Assembly: GCF_015714725.1 (NCBI RefSeq)
Contig: NZ_WBKM01000219.1
Span: 1 to 64,000 of the forward strand
Source of the DNA: Nostoc sp. WHI
GTDB taxonomy: Bacteria; Cyanobacteriota; Cyanobacteriia; Cyanobacteriales; Nostocaceae
Length of the DNA stretch: 64,000 nt
Direction: 5' to 3'
The position numbers and the translations under genes were made by a program. The notes under the pieces are model-generated. The model ran no database searches. It worked only from the letters and a program-made list of their open reading frames with translations, and was not told the origin of the DNA. This document shows positions 2,676 through 9,261 of the stretch, one piece after another. The first letter of the stretch is position 1. Each line of letters begins with the position of its first letter.

Positions 2676-3854
2676 TTAGGAAAGTTTTTCAAAAGGTTTT
2701 ATTTGCTGTCTAACTAGCCAGTCTCGAAAGTTGGAATGATAGAGACTGTAATGGGTTTCTGAAGAGGTTTGTTGTTGCTGTAAGAACTCTAGCCAATTTT
2801 CTAAGACTTCCTCAACTTCATACTCATCAGTATTAAGAATACAAGCGATCGCTTCCACTGATATTGCTTTTTGCTGCTGTATTAAGACATTTAACACATC
2901 TATGCTATGTTCCGTTCCTTGTTCGAGTGGAATCATTTTGTGTAAATGCTGCTGATAATATGCTTCTAAAGCTGGGGGGAGTTGATTGTATTGCAATGGT
3001 TCCGGGTAGAAATTTTCTACGATCGCACTTATTATTTGACTGAGATACATAAAATTATTTTCGCTCAAAGTGGTAAGGCGATCGCAGAATTCTTGCTCCT
3101 TAATCTGGTGATTACTCAACCAAGATTTAAGATCCTCCCTTAACAAGGGGGAAATATTGCCCCCCTTTTGAAGGGGGGTTGGGGGGATCTCTTGAAGGGT
3201 TAGGTAACTTTGAATATATGCTTGAATATCTTGGCGACTTTCTTCTGGATAATCTGCTAAATCAAGACTTTGCGACGGCGTTTCAATTAATAAACCCGAT
3301 TTCTCGCGCAAAAAAGGTCTACGAGTGAGGAGAAAATAGACCCCATCCGGGAGATAGCGGGGGAGATAAAACAGATTTGTACCAGGTGGTTGGCTGTTGC
3401 AGTCAATGCAATTTAACCCATCAATGGCAATTATCAGTTTTTGATGAGGTTCTAACTCATCACTGATTTGCTGGAGAAGACTAGAGAAAAACCAACTTCC
3501 CTCAGTGGCGTTATCAGGGAGGGAGGTGTAATTAAGCGAGTATTGATTAATGAGTTGCGTGCAGATATTTATGAGAAATTCGTCAGCATGATTTTTACCC
3601 TCAAGTTCGGCATTGTAATAAATAACTTGAGGATTGTTTGTCACATATTTGGCGAGGATGGCACTTTTCCCGCTACCGGGTGCGCCAATGATGGTGAAGT
3701 AACCCTGCTTATGGCGGTGGAGAAAGTTGTTAATAGCGGTGAAAACAAATTCACGACCGACAAAGTTTTGGCTTTTTTCTTGAATGATTTGCTCAAACTC
3801 CGTGGGATGTCCTCTGGAATTGATTGCAGTGGGTGGTCTGGGTGGTAAGTTCAT
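2676..3854 (-). CDS. STAND-type P-loop NTPase without sensor domain
   Basis: The 392-residue protein has FVGREFVF at 31-38, Walker A GAPGSGKS at 57-64, a Walker B-like strand IIAIDGLN at 141-148, and the LLTRRPF motif that in STAND NTPases follows sensor 1. It resembles residues ~165-520 of the NTPase at 6837-8402 almost throughout (QGYFT/SGYFT, DIQAYI/DIQEYI, ENNFMYL in both). It ends after the helical domain, with no WD40 or TPR repeats and no N-terminal effector region. About 20 residues (PTPLQKGG...SPLLRE) come from a dispersed DNA repeat (3130-3190) absent from the paralogue. It is divergent from the Uma2 gene, with 45 bp between the starts. Role in signalling or conflict is inference only. 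Confidence 0.85.
   Translation of the reverse strand: MNLPPRPPTAINSRGHPTEFEQIIQEKSQNFVGREFVFTAINNFLHRHKQGYFTIIGAPGSGKSAILAKYVTNNPQVIYYNAELEGKNHADEFLINICTQLINQYSLNYTSLPDNATEGSWFFSSLLQQISDELEPHQKLIIAIDGLNCIDCNSQPPGTNLFYLPRYLPDGVYFLLTRRPFLREKSGLLIETPSQSLDLADYPEESRQDIQAYIQSYLTLQEIPPTPLQKGGNISPLLREDLKSWLSNHQIKEQEFCDRLTTLSENNFMYLSQIISAIVENFYPEPLQYNQLPPALEAYYQQHLHKMIPLEQGTEHSIDVLNVLIQQQKAISVEAIACILNTDEYEVEEVLENWLEFLQQQQTSSETHYSLYHSNFRDWLVRQQIKPFEKLS
3130..3190. repeat. Dispersed palindromic repeat inside a coding region
   Basis: This 61-bp G/C-run element is bounded by AGATCC and GGATCT and holds CCCCCCTTTTGAAGGGGGG. It resembles the dispersed purine-rich palindromes common between genes in filamentous cyanobacteria. 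Here it lies in frame in the NTPase gene and adds about 20 residues that the paralogous NTPase lacks at the aligned position. Confidence 0.75.
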
Positions 3855-3899
3855 AATTGTGAGGAATAATTAAAAGATGAGGCAACAGTAGAGGTGATC

Positions 3900-4463
3900 A
3901 TGACTGTACAATTGCTAAGACGAAAATTCACAATTGAGCAATATCATAAGATGGTTGAGTCGGCGATTCTCACAGAGGATGACCGGGTGGAATTGATTCG
4001 GGGAGAGATTATTGATATGTCGCCTATTGGAACAAAACACGCTGCTTGTGTAAATCGACTTGTTAATCTGTTGATTCTGCTGTTGGGTAAACACGTTATA
4101 CTTGCTGCTCAAAATCCGGTCGCGTTGAACAATAACTCAGAACCTCAGCCAGATGTAGCATTACTTAAGCCCCGTGATGATTTCTACGCCACTGCACACC
4201 CCCAACCACAAGATATTTTTTTACTAATTGAAGTTTCTGATTCGACTATCGTGTATGACCGGGAAGTGAAAATTCCTTTATATGCAGAAGCAAACATAAT
4301 TGAAGTTTGGTTAGTAAATATTAACGAGCAAATTGTGGAAGTTTATCAACAACCAACAGCCGCAGGATATCAGTTGATGCAAAAGTTTACTAGCGGTCAA
4401 AGTTTATCAATTAAAGCTTTCCCTAATGTAAACATTACCGTCAATGAAATCTTTGGCAGATAA
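3900..4463 (+). CDS. Uma2 family putative restriction-endonuclease-fold protein
   Basis: The Uma2 (DUF820) family has a PD-(D/E)XK nuclease fold, is hugely expanded in cyanobacteria, and has no established substrate. Visible motifs, numbered from the ATG start, are the acidic VELIRGEI (Glu36), PQPDVALL (Asp85), LLIEVSDST (Glu111) and YDREVKIPLY (Asp120, Lys124), which match the usual active-site set. I start at ATG 3900, six bases inside a longer frame with GTG at 3894, because GAGGTG at 3891-3896 then serves as ribosome binding site. The gene lies convergent to the WD40 gene and divergent from an NTPase gene. The product is about 187 residues. Confidence 0.9.
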   Translation: MTVQLLRRKFTIEQYHKMVESAILTEDDRVELIRGEIIDMSPIGTKHAACVNRLVNLLILLLGKHVILAAQNPVALNNNSEPQPDVALLKPRDDFYATAHPQPQDIFLLIEVSDSTIVYDREVKIPLYAEANIIEVWLVNINEQIVEVYQQPTAAGYQLMQKFTSGQSLSIKAFPNVNITVNEIFGR

Positions 4464-4476
4464 AATTACTTCCTTT

Positions 4477-5157
4477 TCATTTTCCTTTCATTTCCTCAAG
4501 ACGCAAAAAATGCACTCTACCTGAAGCATCTCCTGCTACGATTGTCGTACCATCTGGAGCAACTGCACAGCAATAAATGAGACTATCCCCAGTGAAAGTT
4601 GTAATAACTTCTCCAGTTGCCAAATTCCAGACTTTGAGGGTGTTATCATCGGATGCAGAAATCACCTGTTGCCCATTGGGAGTGACGGCGACGGCATTTA
4701 CCGAGGAATTATGATCATTGAGGGTGAATAGTTCCTCCCCTATTGCTAGATTCCAGACTTTGAGGGTGTTGTCATCGGATGCAGAAATCACCTGTCGCCC
4801 ATTGGGGGTGACGGCGACGGCATTTACCGAGGAATTATGATCATTGAGGGTGAATAGTTCCTCCCCTATTGCTAGATTCCAGACTTTGAGGGTGTTGTCA
4901 TCGGATGCAGAAATCACCTGTCGCCCATTGGGGGTGACGGCGACGGCATTTACCGAGGAATTATGACCATTGAGGGTAAATAGTTCCTCCCCTGTTGCTA
5001 GATTCCAGACTTTGAGGGTGTTGTCATCGGATGCAGAAATTACCTGTTGTCCATTGGGGGTGACGGCGACGGCATTTACCGAGGAATTATGACCATTGAG
5101 GGTAAATAGTTCCTCCCCTGTTGCTAGATTCCAGACTTTGAGGGTGTTGTCTGTCAT
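4477..5157 (-). pseudogene. Detached C-terminal part of a WD40-repeat protein
   Basis: This 226-codon frame holds four near-identical 42-residue WD40 blades (GHNSSVNAVAVTP...ISASDDNTLKVWNLA) and one degenerate last blade ending in RVHFLRLEEMKGK. It is out of frame with the upstream WD40 ORF because of a tandem TGTC duplication at 5148-5155. Every other copy of the 126-bp unit has TGTC once. Removing one copy joins the two ORFs into one protein of about 784 residues. Its internal ATG (MTDNTLKVW) lies in the middle of a blade and looks fortuitous. It is either a broken tail or, less likely, a phase-variable one. A sequencing error cannot be excluded. Confidence 0.8.
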
Positions 5158-5253
5158 CGGATGCAGAAATTACCTGTTGTCCATTGAGAGTAACAGTAAC
5201 TGCTTTGACCCAGTTACTATGACCCTTGAGGGGGAGTTTTTCCTCCCTAGTCT
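4624..5253 (-). repeat. 126-bp tandem repeat encoding WD40 blades
   Basis: The same motif (ATTCCAGACTTTGAG on the plus strand) starts at 4624, 4750, 4876, 5002 and 5128, an exact 126-bp period (42 codons). The first four copies are nearly identical in DNA, unlike the more diverged blades in 5260-6380, so they look like a recent expansion. The fifth copy carries the 4-bp duplication. Confidence 0.93.
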
Positions 5254-6835
5254 CCAAACTCCAGACTTTCAAGGTTTCGTCAGAAGATGCAGAAATTACC
5301 TGTTTACCATTGGGAGTAACGGTAACTGCTTGGAGCGAATGATTATGACCCTTGAGGGTGAATAGTTCTTTCCCAGTCTCCAAACTCCAAACTTTTAAAG
5401 TGCGGTCGCGGGATGCGGAAATCACCTGTTTAGAATTTTGAGTAACAGCAACTGCATTTACCGAGTGACTATGACCCTTGAGGGTGAGTTGTTCTTCCCC
5501 AGTTTCCAAACTCCAAACTTTTAAAGTGCAGTCACGAGATGCAGAAATTATCTGTTTACCATTGGGAGTAACAGCAACTGCTTTTACCGAGTTACTATGA
5601 CCTTTGAAGGTGAATTTCTCATCTCTAGTTTCCAAACTCCAAACTTTTAGGGTACGCTCATCAGATGCAGAAATTAAATGTTTGCTATTAGGGGTAATAA
5701 CGATTGCATTTACGGAATCACTATGACCAGTGAGAGTAAATTGTTCCTCCCTAGTATCCAAACTCCAGACTTTTAAAGTTTCATCAGAAGATGCAGAAAT
5801 CAACTGTTGACCATTAGGTGTGATGGCAACTGCATTTACCGAGTGACTATGACCTTTGAGAGTAAACAATTCCTCTCCAATCTCCAAACTCCAGACTTTT
5901 AAAGTTTCATCAGATGAAGCAGAAATTAACTGTTGACCGTTAGGGGTAACTGCAACGGCATTTACCGGGTGACTATGACCCTTGAGAGTGAACAATTCCT
6001 CTCCAATCTCTAAACTCCAGACTTTCAAGGTGCAATCAGATGAAGCAGAAATTAACTGTTGACCATTAGGTGTGACGGCGACTGCGTTGATAGAATGACT
6101 ATGACCTGTGAGAGTGAACAATTCCTTCCCCGTCTCCAAACTCCAAACTTTCAAAGTGCAATCAGATGAAGCAGAAATCAACTGTTGACTATTAGGGGTA
6201 ACTGCAACGGCATTTACCGAGAAGTTATGACCCTTAAGAGTGAACAGTTCTTCTCCAGTTTCCAAATTCCAGATTTTGAGGGTTTTATCATCGGATACAG
6301 AAATCACTTGTTGCCCATTGGGGGTGACGGCGACGGCATTTACCCAGGAAGTATGACCATTGAGGGTGCGAAGTAAGCGCCCCCCTGGTGGCGTTAAGCT
6401 AAGAGTCAAAGGACACAGCCAAGGGGTAGTTTTCTTTTGCTTTATTTTTGCCAGTAATTCCTGAATTTCCTCTGGCATTTTCTGATTTAGTAACCGTCCG
6501 TGCAATTGACTCGCTAATTGCCGCTTATCCACGACTAAAATATGCGCTGACAGTCTCAATGCACCTTGAATCAATTCCAGACTTGTGCCTTTTTTAAAGT
6601 TGTATTCTGAGTTATTAGACATCTCCCTATGATCAATCAAATCATAATCTTCAATTAGCGGCTGTACCCCAAACTCAGGATGGTTAATCTTGGCAGTGAT
6701 GAAATCAAAATCAGTCAGGGTTTGGTAATACTCCTCTAAATTTCCCGACTTCACCAAGCTTGGCGCTAAACTACCCAAATAAGCACGTTGAAAAGCAGGA
6801 CTTTGTAACGCTAATTTGTCAGCAAATTCTCCCAT
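5087..6835 (-). CDS. WD40-repeat protein, frameshifted in blade 10
   Basis: Residues 1-~155 are a non-repeat region with motifs typical of cyanobacterial STAND/WD40 proteins (FGVQPLIEDYDL, RLSAHILVVDKRQLASQLHGRLL, TLSLTPPGG). About ten WD40 blades of 42 residues follow (GHxxxVNAVAVTPNGxxxISASxDxTLKVWSLETGEE). The frame leaves the repeat pattern after ISASDD and ends 21 residues later, because of the TGTC duplication at 5148-5155. The ATG lies one base after the TGA of the STAND NTPase gene upstream, so translation is probably coupled. In related genomes such a region is often fused to the NTPase (family knowledge), so the pair may be a split STAND-WD40 receptor. Confidence 0.85.
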   Translation of the reverse strand: MGEFADKLALQSPAFQRAYLGSLAPSLVKSGNLEEYYQTLTDFDFITAKINHPEFGVQPLIEDYDLIDHREMSNNSEYNFKKGTSLELIQGALRLSAHILVVDKRQLASQLHGRLLNQKMPEEIQELLAKIKQKKTTPWLCPLTLSLTPPGGRLLRTLNGHTSWVNAVAVTPNGQQVISVSDDKTLKIWNLETGEELFTLKGHNFSVNAVAVTPNSQQLISASSDCTLKVWSLETGKELFTLTGHSHSINAVAVTPNGQQLISASSDCTLKVWSLEIGEELFTLKGHSHPVNAVAVTPNGQQLISASSDETLKVWSLEIGEELFTLKGHSHSVNAVAITPNGQQLISASSDETLKVWSLDTREEQFTLTGHSDSVNAIVITPNSKHLISASDERTLKVWSLETRDEKFTFKGHSNSVKAVAVTPNGKQIISASRDCTLKVWSLETGEEQLTLKGHSHSVNAVAVTQNSKQVISASRDRTLKVWSLETGKELFTLKGHNHSLQAVTVTPNGKQVISASSDETLKVWSLETREEKLPLKGHSNWVKAVTVTLNGQQVISASDDRQHPQSLESSNRGGTIYPQWS

Positions 6836-6836
6836 T

Positions 6837-8402
6837 TCACGCCATCTTCTTTATAAGGTAGTCTGCAATGCGTTGATTAACCTCTTGAAATAGGTTCCGT
6901 TTGGAATCTAAAACCCGTTTTGCTTTCAAAAAGTCCAAAAAACTTGCATGATAGATGCTGTGGCAGATTTCTCCTTTTATATCCTGCTTCTTCAAATATT
7001 CAACCCACTCTTCTAAAACTAATTGCACATCATATTCCTCTTGTTTGGCAATATCCGCTATCATCTCACAAGTAATTGGTGTGCCAATCTCCACTAAAAT
7101 AAACAGGATAAATACTTTTTCTTCTTGGGGCTTTGCATCCATCCCCATACGTACCCAATGAACTTGATAATAATCCTTTAGACCATCGGGTAATTGCTTT
7201 AAACTCAGGTCATTATAGTCACCTTTAGCAATTCCTGGCAAAATATAACGCAGGTACATGAAATTATTTTCACTCTTAATTGCTACCTGCTCAACAAAAT
7301 CATTATCAGAAATATTGCGGTCTTGAATCCATTGTCTAAGTGCCTTCTTATAGTCTTCATCGGCATTCAAAAAGAACCGAATATACTCCTGAATGTCTTC
7401 ACGACTCAAATCAACATACTTAGTTGCGCTTAAATCTAGCTCATCGACAGGGACATCTGGTGCAGACAAGCGTTTTTTATCTATGGTATATGGTCGTCTA
7501 GTCAGCAGAAAATAAACACGTTCAGGAAGCGACGGCGGTAAATCTAAAAGATTCCCCCCTGTTTCTTGTTCGACTTCATCCAGCGCATCAACCACAATTA
7601 CCAGGCGATCGCCAGCAGTCAGTTTTCTGCTAACCTGTTCTAATAAATCTGCTAAATTAGCCTTCTGGGCATTCTGCAACTGGTAACGCTTAATTAATTG
7701 TTTGCGAATACTTTCAAGAAATAGCTCCGGTCGATTGCGACCATCGGAGCGAATATTAAAATAGCATGGTGATTTATTGTCCCAGACGTATTTAGCAGCA
7801 ATGGTACTCTTCCCCATCCCCGCATCACCCACTACTGTAAAATAACCACTGCGATTTTTATCGCAAAATTGCTTAAATGCGTCAAATACAAACTGACGAC
7901 CACAAAATGAGCGAATTTTCTCTTTAATTAATGACTTAAATTCTGCTGAGTACTCGTCTAAATTCCATTCTGGAAAAGGTTCAAACTCGATTGATTTACT
8001 TCTTTTAGCAACCTTAATAAATATTTCCCCAAAGTCTTCTAATTGCGATCGCAGATCAATTCTCATCAATCGGATATCATATTCTGAATCCTTCCCCTGC
8101 AAAAACTTTTCTACTTCCTTGTAGAAACCCAAGGGATTATTTGAAGTATAAGCACTCCAAAAAGCATTTTTAATTTCTCTTTCTCGAAAAAGATTCAGCA
8201 GTACTTCCTGCTTATCCACACCATACTCAATTAAAGAATAAACATAAACACCATCAACATCTTTAGGTGGTTGTACTGGGTCAAAATTGAATTGTTTTAA
8301 GGTTCTAACTACAGTTTCATTGCGTTGAACTTGATTAATAACTAGAGAAGCCGCAGGTTTAGCAATACTTTTAAGTGCATTAACTACAGGGTCAATATTC
8401 AT
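6837..8402 (-). CDS. STAND NTPase with N-terminal effector-like region
   Basis: The 521-residue protein has an uncharacterised ~150-residue N-terminal region (helical start to ~35, then a mixed region with YSLIEYGVDKQEVLLNLFRER and FLQGKDSEYDIRLMRIDLRSQL). Next come FCGRQFVFDAF at 167-177, Walker A GDAGMGKS at 192-199, Walker B LVIVVDALDE at 267-276 and TRRP at 301-304, then a helical region. This is a NACHT/STAND layout in which the WD40 sensor is encoded by the next gene (stop TGA, one base, ATG). Such NTPases act as ligand-triggered switches in signalling, programmed cell death or phage defence; which applies here is not visible. Confidence 0.88.
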   Translation of the reverse strand: MNIDPVVNALKSIAKPAASLVINQVQRNETVVRTLKQFNFDPVQPPKDVDGVYVYSLIEYGVDKQEVLLNLFREREIKNAFWSAYTSNNPLGFYKEVEKFLQGKDSEYDIRLMRIDLRSQLEDFGEIFIKVAKRSKSIEFEPFPEWNLDEYSAEFKSLIKEKIRSFCGRQFVFDAFKQFCDKNRSGYFTVVGDAGMGKSTIAAKYVWDNKSPCYFNIRSDGRNRPELFLESIRKQLIKRYQLQNAQKANLADLLEQVSRKLTAGDRLVIVVDALDEVEQETGGNLLDLPPSLPERVYFLLTRRPYTIDKKRLSAPDVPVDELDLSATKYVDLSREDIQEYIRFFLNADEDYKKALRQWIQDRNISDNDFVEQVAIKSENNFMYLRYILPGIAKGDYNDLSLKQLPDGLKDYYQVHWVRMGMDAKPQEEKVFILFILVEIGTPITCEMIADIAKQEEYDVQLVLEEWVEYLKKQDIKGEICHSIYHASFLDFLKAKRVLDSKRNLFQEVNQRIADYLIKKMA

Positions 8403-9261
8403 CTTTGCTAGCAGTAGAGATAATTTTTACACCTGTAACTTATCCTAACGACAGATGCCAAAATTAAGCAAATACATACATGTATAATAGCGATACCTTT
8501 CCTTCTCTACGAGAGGCTGCGCCAATGGAACGCTACGCATAGCTTGTTTGTCCGTAGGAGTACGGTAAGCTGCGCTAACGCTTCCTCATCTCTCTTCTTT
8601 TGTGTCCTCTGCGCCTCTGCGGTTCAATTCTCAGACTCATTTAGCGCAGTATGAGCGCTCACTTGTACCTAAAATAAAATGAAACATGGTGCGTAGGCGT
8701 AGCCCGCACTTCTCTACGAAAGGCTGCGCCAACGACAAGCTCAGTGACCATCGTAGACATCGCATATACGTTTCAGTACCAAACCCCAAACTTGAGCTTT
8801 TAAACCGCAACTTTCAGCATAAAAGGTGCAACTTTCAAGCTCAAAGGTGCAACTTTCAGCATAAAAGGCTCAACGTTCAAGCTCAAAGGCTCAACGTTCA
8901 CCCTCAAAGGCTCAACCTTCAAGCTCAAAGGCTCAACATTCACCCTCAAAAGCTCAACTGCGGCAATATTAACTTTGCAACCATATCAACAAGTAGAAAC
9001 CCCATAGATGCTTGGATACTAAAGATAACCATCTATGGTATAGAAATGTATAGAATCTTGTAAAGATATAAAATATAGTTGTTAAATGCACATATTTCTA
9101 GTTTCTTTCTCAATGCAGCTGTCTGTACCACCAAATCACTTTCAGCCAATGAAGATTGTCGCACGGGGGAAAGCTTAATTTATGGATAAATCTATTTATA
9201 AAAACTCTAATTTCTCTATTCTTCATTACTCCTAACTCCTAACTCAGCACTCAGCACTCCT
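8403..9261. other. Gene-poor repeat-rich gap
   Basis: No convincing gene lies between the divergent STAND NTPase and the membrane protein at 9262. Two copies of a dispersed element sharing CTTCTCTACGA-AGGCTGCGCCAA are visible near 8502 and 8710, followed by the 21-bp minisatellite at 8809-8955. An open frame at 8686-9063 begins inside the dispersed element and reads through the minisatellite, so I treat it as fortuitous. The start-proximal end of the NTPase gene must hold its promoter, but no strong -35/-10 pair stands out. Confidence 0.6.
8809..8955. repeat. 21-bp minisatellite, seven copies
   Basis: Seven consecutive 21-bp units start at 8809, 8830, 8851, 8872, 8893, 8914 and 8935, each reading AAC-TTCA---AAAGG-(T/C)GC or a close variant. 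Units alternate between two sub-types (AAGCTCAAA and ACCCTCAAA or AGCATAAAA). Because 21 is a multiple of three, the array is open in frame and would encode a heptapeptide of the type N-V/F-Q-A-Q-R-L. A degenerate unit may precede it at 8788-8808. Confidence 0.93.

Follow-up and report, generated by a model that had tools for sequence, protein, structure and literature searches.

The locus described here raises the question of whether a WD40 gene of Nostoc that carries four extra bases is a genuine, recently broken allele or a product of assembly, and of what the intact gene would do. The gene lies on the minus strand of a stretch of 64 000 nucleotides from Nostoc sp. WHI (hereafter the window), and was analysed together with its neighbours, its counterparts in other genomes of the genus and the pattern of change along its blades.

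Structure of the split WD40 gene

The plus-strand sequence TGTCTGTC at 5148–5155 is a 4-bp tandem duplication within the minus-strand WD40 gene and shifts its reading frame; the duplication was characterized from the sequence, an alignment of the repeat units and a genus-wide pattern search. In the window the 8-mer is present once on the plus strand, and its reverse complement is present twice, so that by itself it is unremarkable and its effect on the frame is what counts. The frame is lost in the tenth of 14 blade-coding units, leaving ORFs of 582 residues (6835–5087) and 226 residues (5157–4477). The 5′ part (5087–6835, minus strand) encodes a helical N-terminus of about 150 residues, nine complete blades and the broken tenth, followed by an out-of-frame tail. 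The 3′ part (4477–5157, minus strand), in a different frame, encodes the remainder of blade 10, four further blades and a divergent terminal blade. With 4 bp removed, the gene has (2359 − 4)/3 = 785 codons and encodes 784 residues, and the 14 units and the divergent terminal blade make 15 blades. The initial annotation had reported the duplication, the shift of frame inside blade 10 and a restored protein of about 784 residues with 15 blades, and was right in each of these. It had also stated that every other copy of the unit carries a single TGTC at this place, which is incorrect: TGTC is found there in three of the 13 other units, the other ten carrying a different tetranucleotide.

The array of 14 units (4620–6387, minus strand) was delimited by unit spacing. 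Unit starts are 126 bp apart throughout, except in the broken unit (5124–5253, minus strand), which is 130 bp long. The four units that follow the break (4620–5123, minus strand) are nearly identical, with 5, 3 and 3 differences in 126 bases between neighbours as against 12–42 in the ten other neighbouring pairs. Recent blade amplification at the DNA level is true of these four units, and the remaining units are older; the broken gene does therefore belong to a recent repeat expansion, as originally described.

If both ORFs were translated, from an internal start at ATG 5157 or by programmed frameshifting, a split protein might still work. The first codon of the second ORF is indeed ATG, but the stop codon of the first ORF lies 68 bases downstream of it, which is far for a simple coupled restart, and the sequence before this ATG offers no more than an AGG, whose first base lies 18 bases upstream. 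No slippery heptamer of the form X XXY YYZ occurs where both frames are open (5172–5087). A functional split protein is regarded as very improbable.

The longer half was modelled using AlphaFold2 (mean pLDDT 72.1, pTM 0.56). The top PDB matches of the model are WD40 propellers, with model-normalised TM-scores of no more than 0.47 among the 50 matches listed, and at scores of this size the model does not decide whether the truncated sensor closes. Entry 2YMU ranks first in the PDB for the 226-residue half by sequence and, among the matches listed, for the 582-residue model by Foldseek E-value.

Gene neighbourhood and counterparts of the locus

The first gene of the locus is a STAND ATPase gene of the NNH5-NACHT type (NACHT_A; 6837–8402, minus strand; 521 residues; Pfam NNH5 E = 1.4e-45, NPHP3_N 1.1e-8, NACHT 3e-6). 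Its stop codon and the WD40 start codon form the junction TGA-A-ATG, with one base between the genes. A Uma2 gene (3894–4463, plus strand; Pfam Uma2 E = 3.1e-33; PADLOC PDC-S03 3e-20) is convergent to the WD40 gene, and the last gene of the locus encodes a second NACHT/STAND-type ATPase (NACHT_B; 2676–3854, minus strand; 392 residues; AAA_16 E = 8.5e-8) with 36% identity to NACHT_A. Because an NNH5-NACHT gene lies one base upstream and a second NACHT gene lies downstream, the WD40 gene is taken to encode the sensor in an NLR-like (STAND) locus. The initial annotation had recognized the WD40 gene and missed this role. By PADLOC and NCBIfam NACHT_A resembles defence ATPases only weakly, with Avs1b as the top match, and its ATPase region stays below the cut-off of the Avs1b family (31.8 bits against 1500). 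In Pfam the locus shows neither a TIR nor a caspase domain, and no HET effector domain, the N-terminal domain of the ATPase being NNH5. The plasmid records searched gave no match.

Two further features of this genome were recorded. Upstream of NACHT_A lies a tandem array with a 21-bp unit (8806–8958, −557 to −406 from NACHT_A), and repeats of 21-bp period were found upstream of NACHT_A in 13 of the 14 loci examined, two of them with just 1.9 copies. The family is dispersed in the genome, with 160 pattern matches against four for a reversed control and with adjoining genes of many kinds. Since STAND-type domains (NNH3, NB-ARC) occur in only two of the ten neighbouring genes examined and the family is so dispersed, the array was rejected as a control element of STAND genes. 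The genome also has a paralogous NNH5-NACHT locus (contig C290, L086), in which two tandem WD40 arrays stand before the second NACHT gene, with a separate copy of the N-terminal domain ahead of each array.

Counterparts were searched for in 53 genomes of the genus, that of the window included, and in GTDB contigs (14 loci), and 20 stretches were fetched. From the search results 26 loci were chosen and examined, the window and some paralogous loci among them. The putative NLR-like (STAND) locus is found across Nostoc. The WD40 gene starts one base after the NACHT_A stop codon in 19 of the 26 loci, the paralogous C290 locus included; this junction is missing in FACHB152, G001, G015, G014, G003, G043 and Fischerella. 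A junction so often kept suggests that the ATPase and the sensor are made as a fixed pair, and the NNH5-NACHT and WD40 proteins would form one receptor with its sensor encoded apart. Behind the WD40 gene, Uma2 is present in 17 of the 26 loci, five of which (G027, G031, G016, G046 and TH1S01) have only a fragment of it; NACHT_B is present there, in the stretch read, in 19 of the 26, including the window.

The WD40 frame is open in 19 of the 23 loci that could be assessed and broken in four, so that breakage of this gene recurs. Besides the window, these are G051, which comes from a metagenome bin and has one in-frame stop, G014, in which the gene is degenerate, and G003, which has a frameshift in the N-terminal part. 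Three of the 26 loci were left out of the count: Nostoc mirabile CHAB5784 (G013; run of N), G018b (contig end) and 106C (a stop 46 bases before the contig end). A second frameshift had been considered in CHAB5784 and was rejected, as the apparent break is the run of N in the array. The ATPase gene is affected in two loci: in G046 NACHT_A is broken and the WD40 gene is open, and in G043 there is a stop within NACHT_A.

Open WD40 frames contain from four (G049 and G031) to 15 (G001) profile-counted blades. Kinship between blades was assessed in a set of 191, all complete and drawn from 20 loci or contig pieces; the broken blade of the window and incomplete blades were left out. The closest blade lies in the same gene for 117 of the 191 and in another gene for 74. 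The counts are uneven between genes, with the closest blade in the same gene for 13 of 13 blades in the window, three of 13 in G018a, one of six in G016 and five of 15 in G001, and the units are therefore often, though not always, homogenized within genes.

Authenticity and age of the duplication

Two direct repeats in the array, one of 159 bp (4682–4840 with 4808–4966, within the four near-identical units) and one of 101 bp (4925–5025 with 5051–5151), are the sole exact direct repeats of at least 60 bp in the window. The 101-bp repeat ends at 5151, exactly at the duplication, and with one TGTC would be 132 bp long. The duplication thus sits where the array is at its most uniform, and errors of replication and of assembly are both likely there.

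The sensor may accordingly be intact in the organism, the four extra bases having arisen as the assembler joined or resolved near-identical units. This is compatible with the state of both gene halves, which are otherwise open, and with the placing of the site, which without the extra bases would fall inside the 132-bp exact repeat. The assembly comprises 8.56 Mb in 390 contigs (completeness 99.49%, contamination 6.64%). Two of its contigs, C7 and C77, begin within WD40-like arrays and three others, C145, C365 and C10, break off within 21-bp arrays, a pattern suggestive of short reads. An exact match of 127 bp shared by C7 and C77 was considered as a trace of the k value of the assembler, and was discarded because it is internal to both contigs. 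Some contigs are redundant (L112–L115): C125 and C314 are 100% identical, at the same coordinates, over the 5001 bp compared, and C311 and C312 have two pieces in common, of 2.6 and 2.3 kb, at 99.7 and 99.96% identity. Partial redundancy of this kind may account for the contamination value. In the nearest relative, CHAB5784, the run of N lies in the same array. For the 126-bp WD40 arrays of Podospora, the accessible text of PMC12222747 describes short-read assemblies as unreliable, with Ns, omitted units and chimeras of units, and treats a single 1-bp deletion found in a long-read assembly as a misassembly.

Against an assembly error, the longer exact repeat of the same array, of 159 bp, carries no frame error, and errors in such an array would be expected to alter whole 126-bp units and so to keep the frame. 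A 4-bp tandem duplication, on the other hand, is an ordinary type of mutation, and relatives with a broken gene are not uncommon, one of them (G003) belonging to a genome of about five contigs. The initial annotation had also named an assembly error, for which the grounds are better than the sequence of the window alone could show. On balance we consider an assembly error possible but rather unlikely.

The duplicated pattern was sought in its sequence context with one mismatch allowed, and was found in one of the 53 genomes, that of the window, and in none of the 52 others. NACHT_A, the N-terminal part of the WD40 gene and NACHT_B have dN/dS values of 0.23–0.46 against CHAB5784 and G049, from which it is inferred that the locus was functional until recently; with the adjoining ATPase genes open and under purifying selection, any loss would appear to be recent. 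The new null allele proposed in the initial annotation is plausible on these grounds, though not proven. Its further proposal of slippage-driven on/off switching did not find support, since the 4-mer is present in two copies only and alleles with a different number of copies were not seen. A reversible switch could also act through recombination between units: the broken unit and the unit after the break share 35 exact bases 130 bp apart, so that loss of a unit could in principle restore the frame, and unit number does differ across species. Such a reversion would, however, be incidental to ordinary turnover of the array, and no second allele was seen, the duplication being absent from the 52 other genomes of the genus. 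Phase variation by either route is considered highly unlikely.

Probable selection on the blades and proposed role of the sensor

For fungal WD40 blades, Paoletti et al. (2007; PMC1805685, accessible part) reported strong diversifying selection at codons 7, 9, 25 and 27, which lie in pairs on either side of the conserved codons 8 and 26. Aligned by the conserved V and D that lie between the paired positions, these codons become 9, 11, 27 and 29 in the Nostoc blade. Seven fungal positions given in the available text of PMC12222747 (10, 11, 12, 14, 30, 32 and 39) match the Nostoc numbering with a constant shift of three. Values of dN/dS were obtained from disjoint closest blade pairs within genes, using 36 pairs with at most 15 differences and 64 pairs with at most 25; they are counting estimates that ignore recombination. 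An earlier six-position set had been picked after the entropies were viewed and with the fungal positions in mind, and the four-position set was then taken from PMC1805685, so that the choice of positions was not blind.

At positions 9, 11, 27 and 29 dN/dS is 4.35 (36 pairs) and 2.09 (64 pairs), compared with 0.34 and 0.32 at the other 38 positions and 0.28 and 0.20 at the conserved positions between the pairs. A nonsynonymous rate as high was reached by 111 (first pair set) or 116 (second) of 111 930 four-position sets, and the published offset ranks highest among 22 offsets. A bootstrap over 20 genes gave dN/dS values of 1.27–3.40, with 0.3% of resamples at or below 1. Genomes of no more than about 20 contigs yield 7.4 from 14 pairs and 4.5 from 20. 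The ratios rest on small numbers of synonymous changes at the four codons, namely 4.2 and 17.6 in the two full pair sets and 1 and 2 when few-contig genomes are used; if the synonymous rate is taken instead from the other 38 positions, dN/dS becomes 1.85 and 1.27 for the full sets, and for the few-contig genomes 1.40 and 0.85. The window alone gives 1.9, from five pairs and hence few data. Positions 8, 1 and 4 also change fast, and the four positions are among the fastest rather than the only fast ones. Position 7 (dN/dS 0.29) and position 36 (low entropy), the equivalents of which appear among the fungal seven, are not raised. The concentration of amino-acid change at positions 9, 11, 27 and 29 is firm, and positive selection proper at these positions is likely rather than proven. 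In the literature covered, by titles and abstract openings and with subscription papers mostly outside coverage, diversifying selection at these blade positions was not found for cyanobacteria.

Disrupted and recently amplified WD40 propellers of Nostoc have already been published, and the excess of dN/dS at the four positions equivalent to those of HET-D/E is the newer element. Recently amplified propellers in Nostoc STAND proteins are described in the accessible part of Pereira and Lupas (2022; PMC9218822), together with relatives disrupted by frameshifts or stops, among them BBD61132.1 of Nostoc sp. HK-1, in which blades continue out of frame; fast turnover tied to innate immunity is proposed there, citing Dunin-Horkawicz et al. 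(2014). With the cyanobacterial STAND propellers (WRAP, Npun_R6612, PDB entry 2YMU) the present gene shares its occurrence in Nostoc, near-identical blades and STAND ATPase partners, and as in the disrupted members further blades are found in another frame. The locus also has a second STAND ATPase, NACHT_B, as would be expected of that group. In those proteins, however, the WD40 region belongs to the same protein as the ATPase, whereas here it is encoded by a separate gene one base after that of the ATPase; in addition, the ATPase here carries NNH5, and only four of the 14 units are near-identical, the others having diverged.

The HNWD proteins of Podospora anserina (het-d, het-e and het-r) share with the Nostoc locus the combination of NACHT and WD40, 126-bp units, variation in unit number and homogenization of units, and an allele with read-supported stop codons is known among them (PMC1805685, PMC2873952 and PMC12222747, as far as accessible). 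In the same sources and here, blades of het-d/e and of Nostoc both show a nonsynonymous excess at the four equivalent positions. The Nostoc locus differs in being bacterial, in having no HET domain and in distributing NACHT and WD40 over two genes. The bacterial NACHT/Avs antiphage proteins also link a STAND ATPase to a sensor; compared with these, the ATPase region of the Nostoc locus is only weakly similar to Avs1b.

In STAND proteins, NACHT ATPases oligomerize when their sensor binds a ligand. The locus would accordingly encode, besides a second STAND ATPase, an NLR-like (STAND) receptor in two genes, with the NNH5-NACHT protein as its switch and the separately encoded WD40 protein as its sensor. 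Recombination between the 126-bp units would make the array grow, shrink and become homogeneous, and a few surface positions in each blade would change fast, probably under diversifying selection. Such a sensor should recognize changing foreign or non-self proteins. The latest amplification, of the last four or five blades, was probably accompanied or followed by the 4-bp tandem duplication, which would have divided the sensor into pieces of about 9.6 and 5.4 blades and most likely created a recent loss-of-function allele. The split sensor is probably, but not certainly, inactive: intact relatives with only four to six counted blades exist, and a truncated sensor need not therefore be null. 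We favour, with some reserve, the reading as a real and recent allele of such a two-gene receptor.

A wider interpretation is put forward tentatively. The WD40 sensors of NLR-like receptors in Nostoc may carry a recognition code that is shuffled by recombination and positively selected at the same four blade positions as in the self/non-self receptors of fungi; such sensor logic, in a bacterium that is multicellular, would be either convergent or very old, and broken alleles like the present one would stand at the end of the turnover where sensors are discarded or switched off. The break itself is one more case in a published pattern, the fast birth and death of WD40 sensors. The locus shared across Nostoc is more useful than the break, as it offers orthologous NLR-like sensors with very different blade numbers and fast change at defined positions, in hosts that are bacteria open to tests of phage defence or kin recognition.
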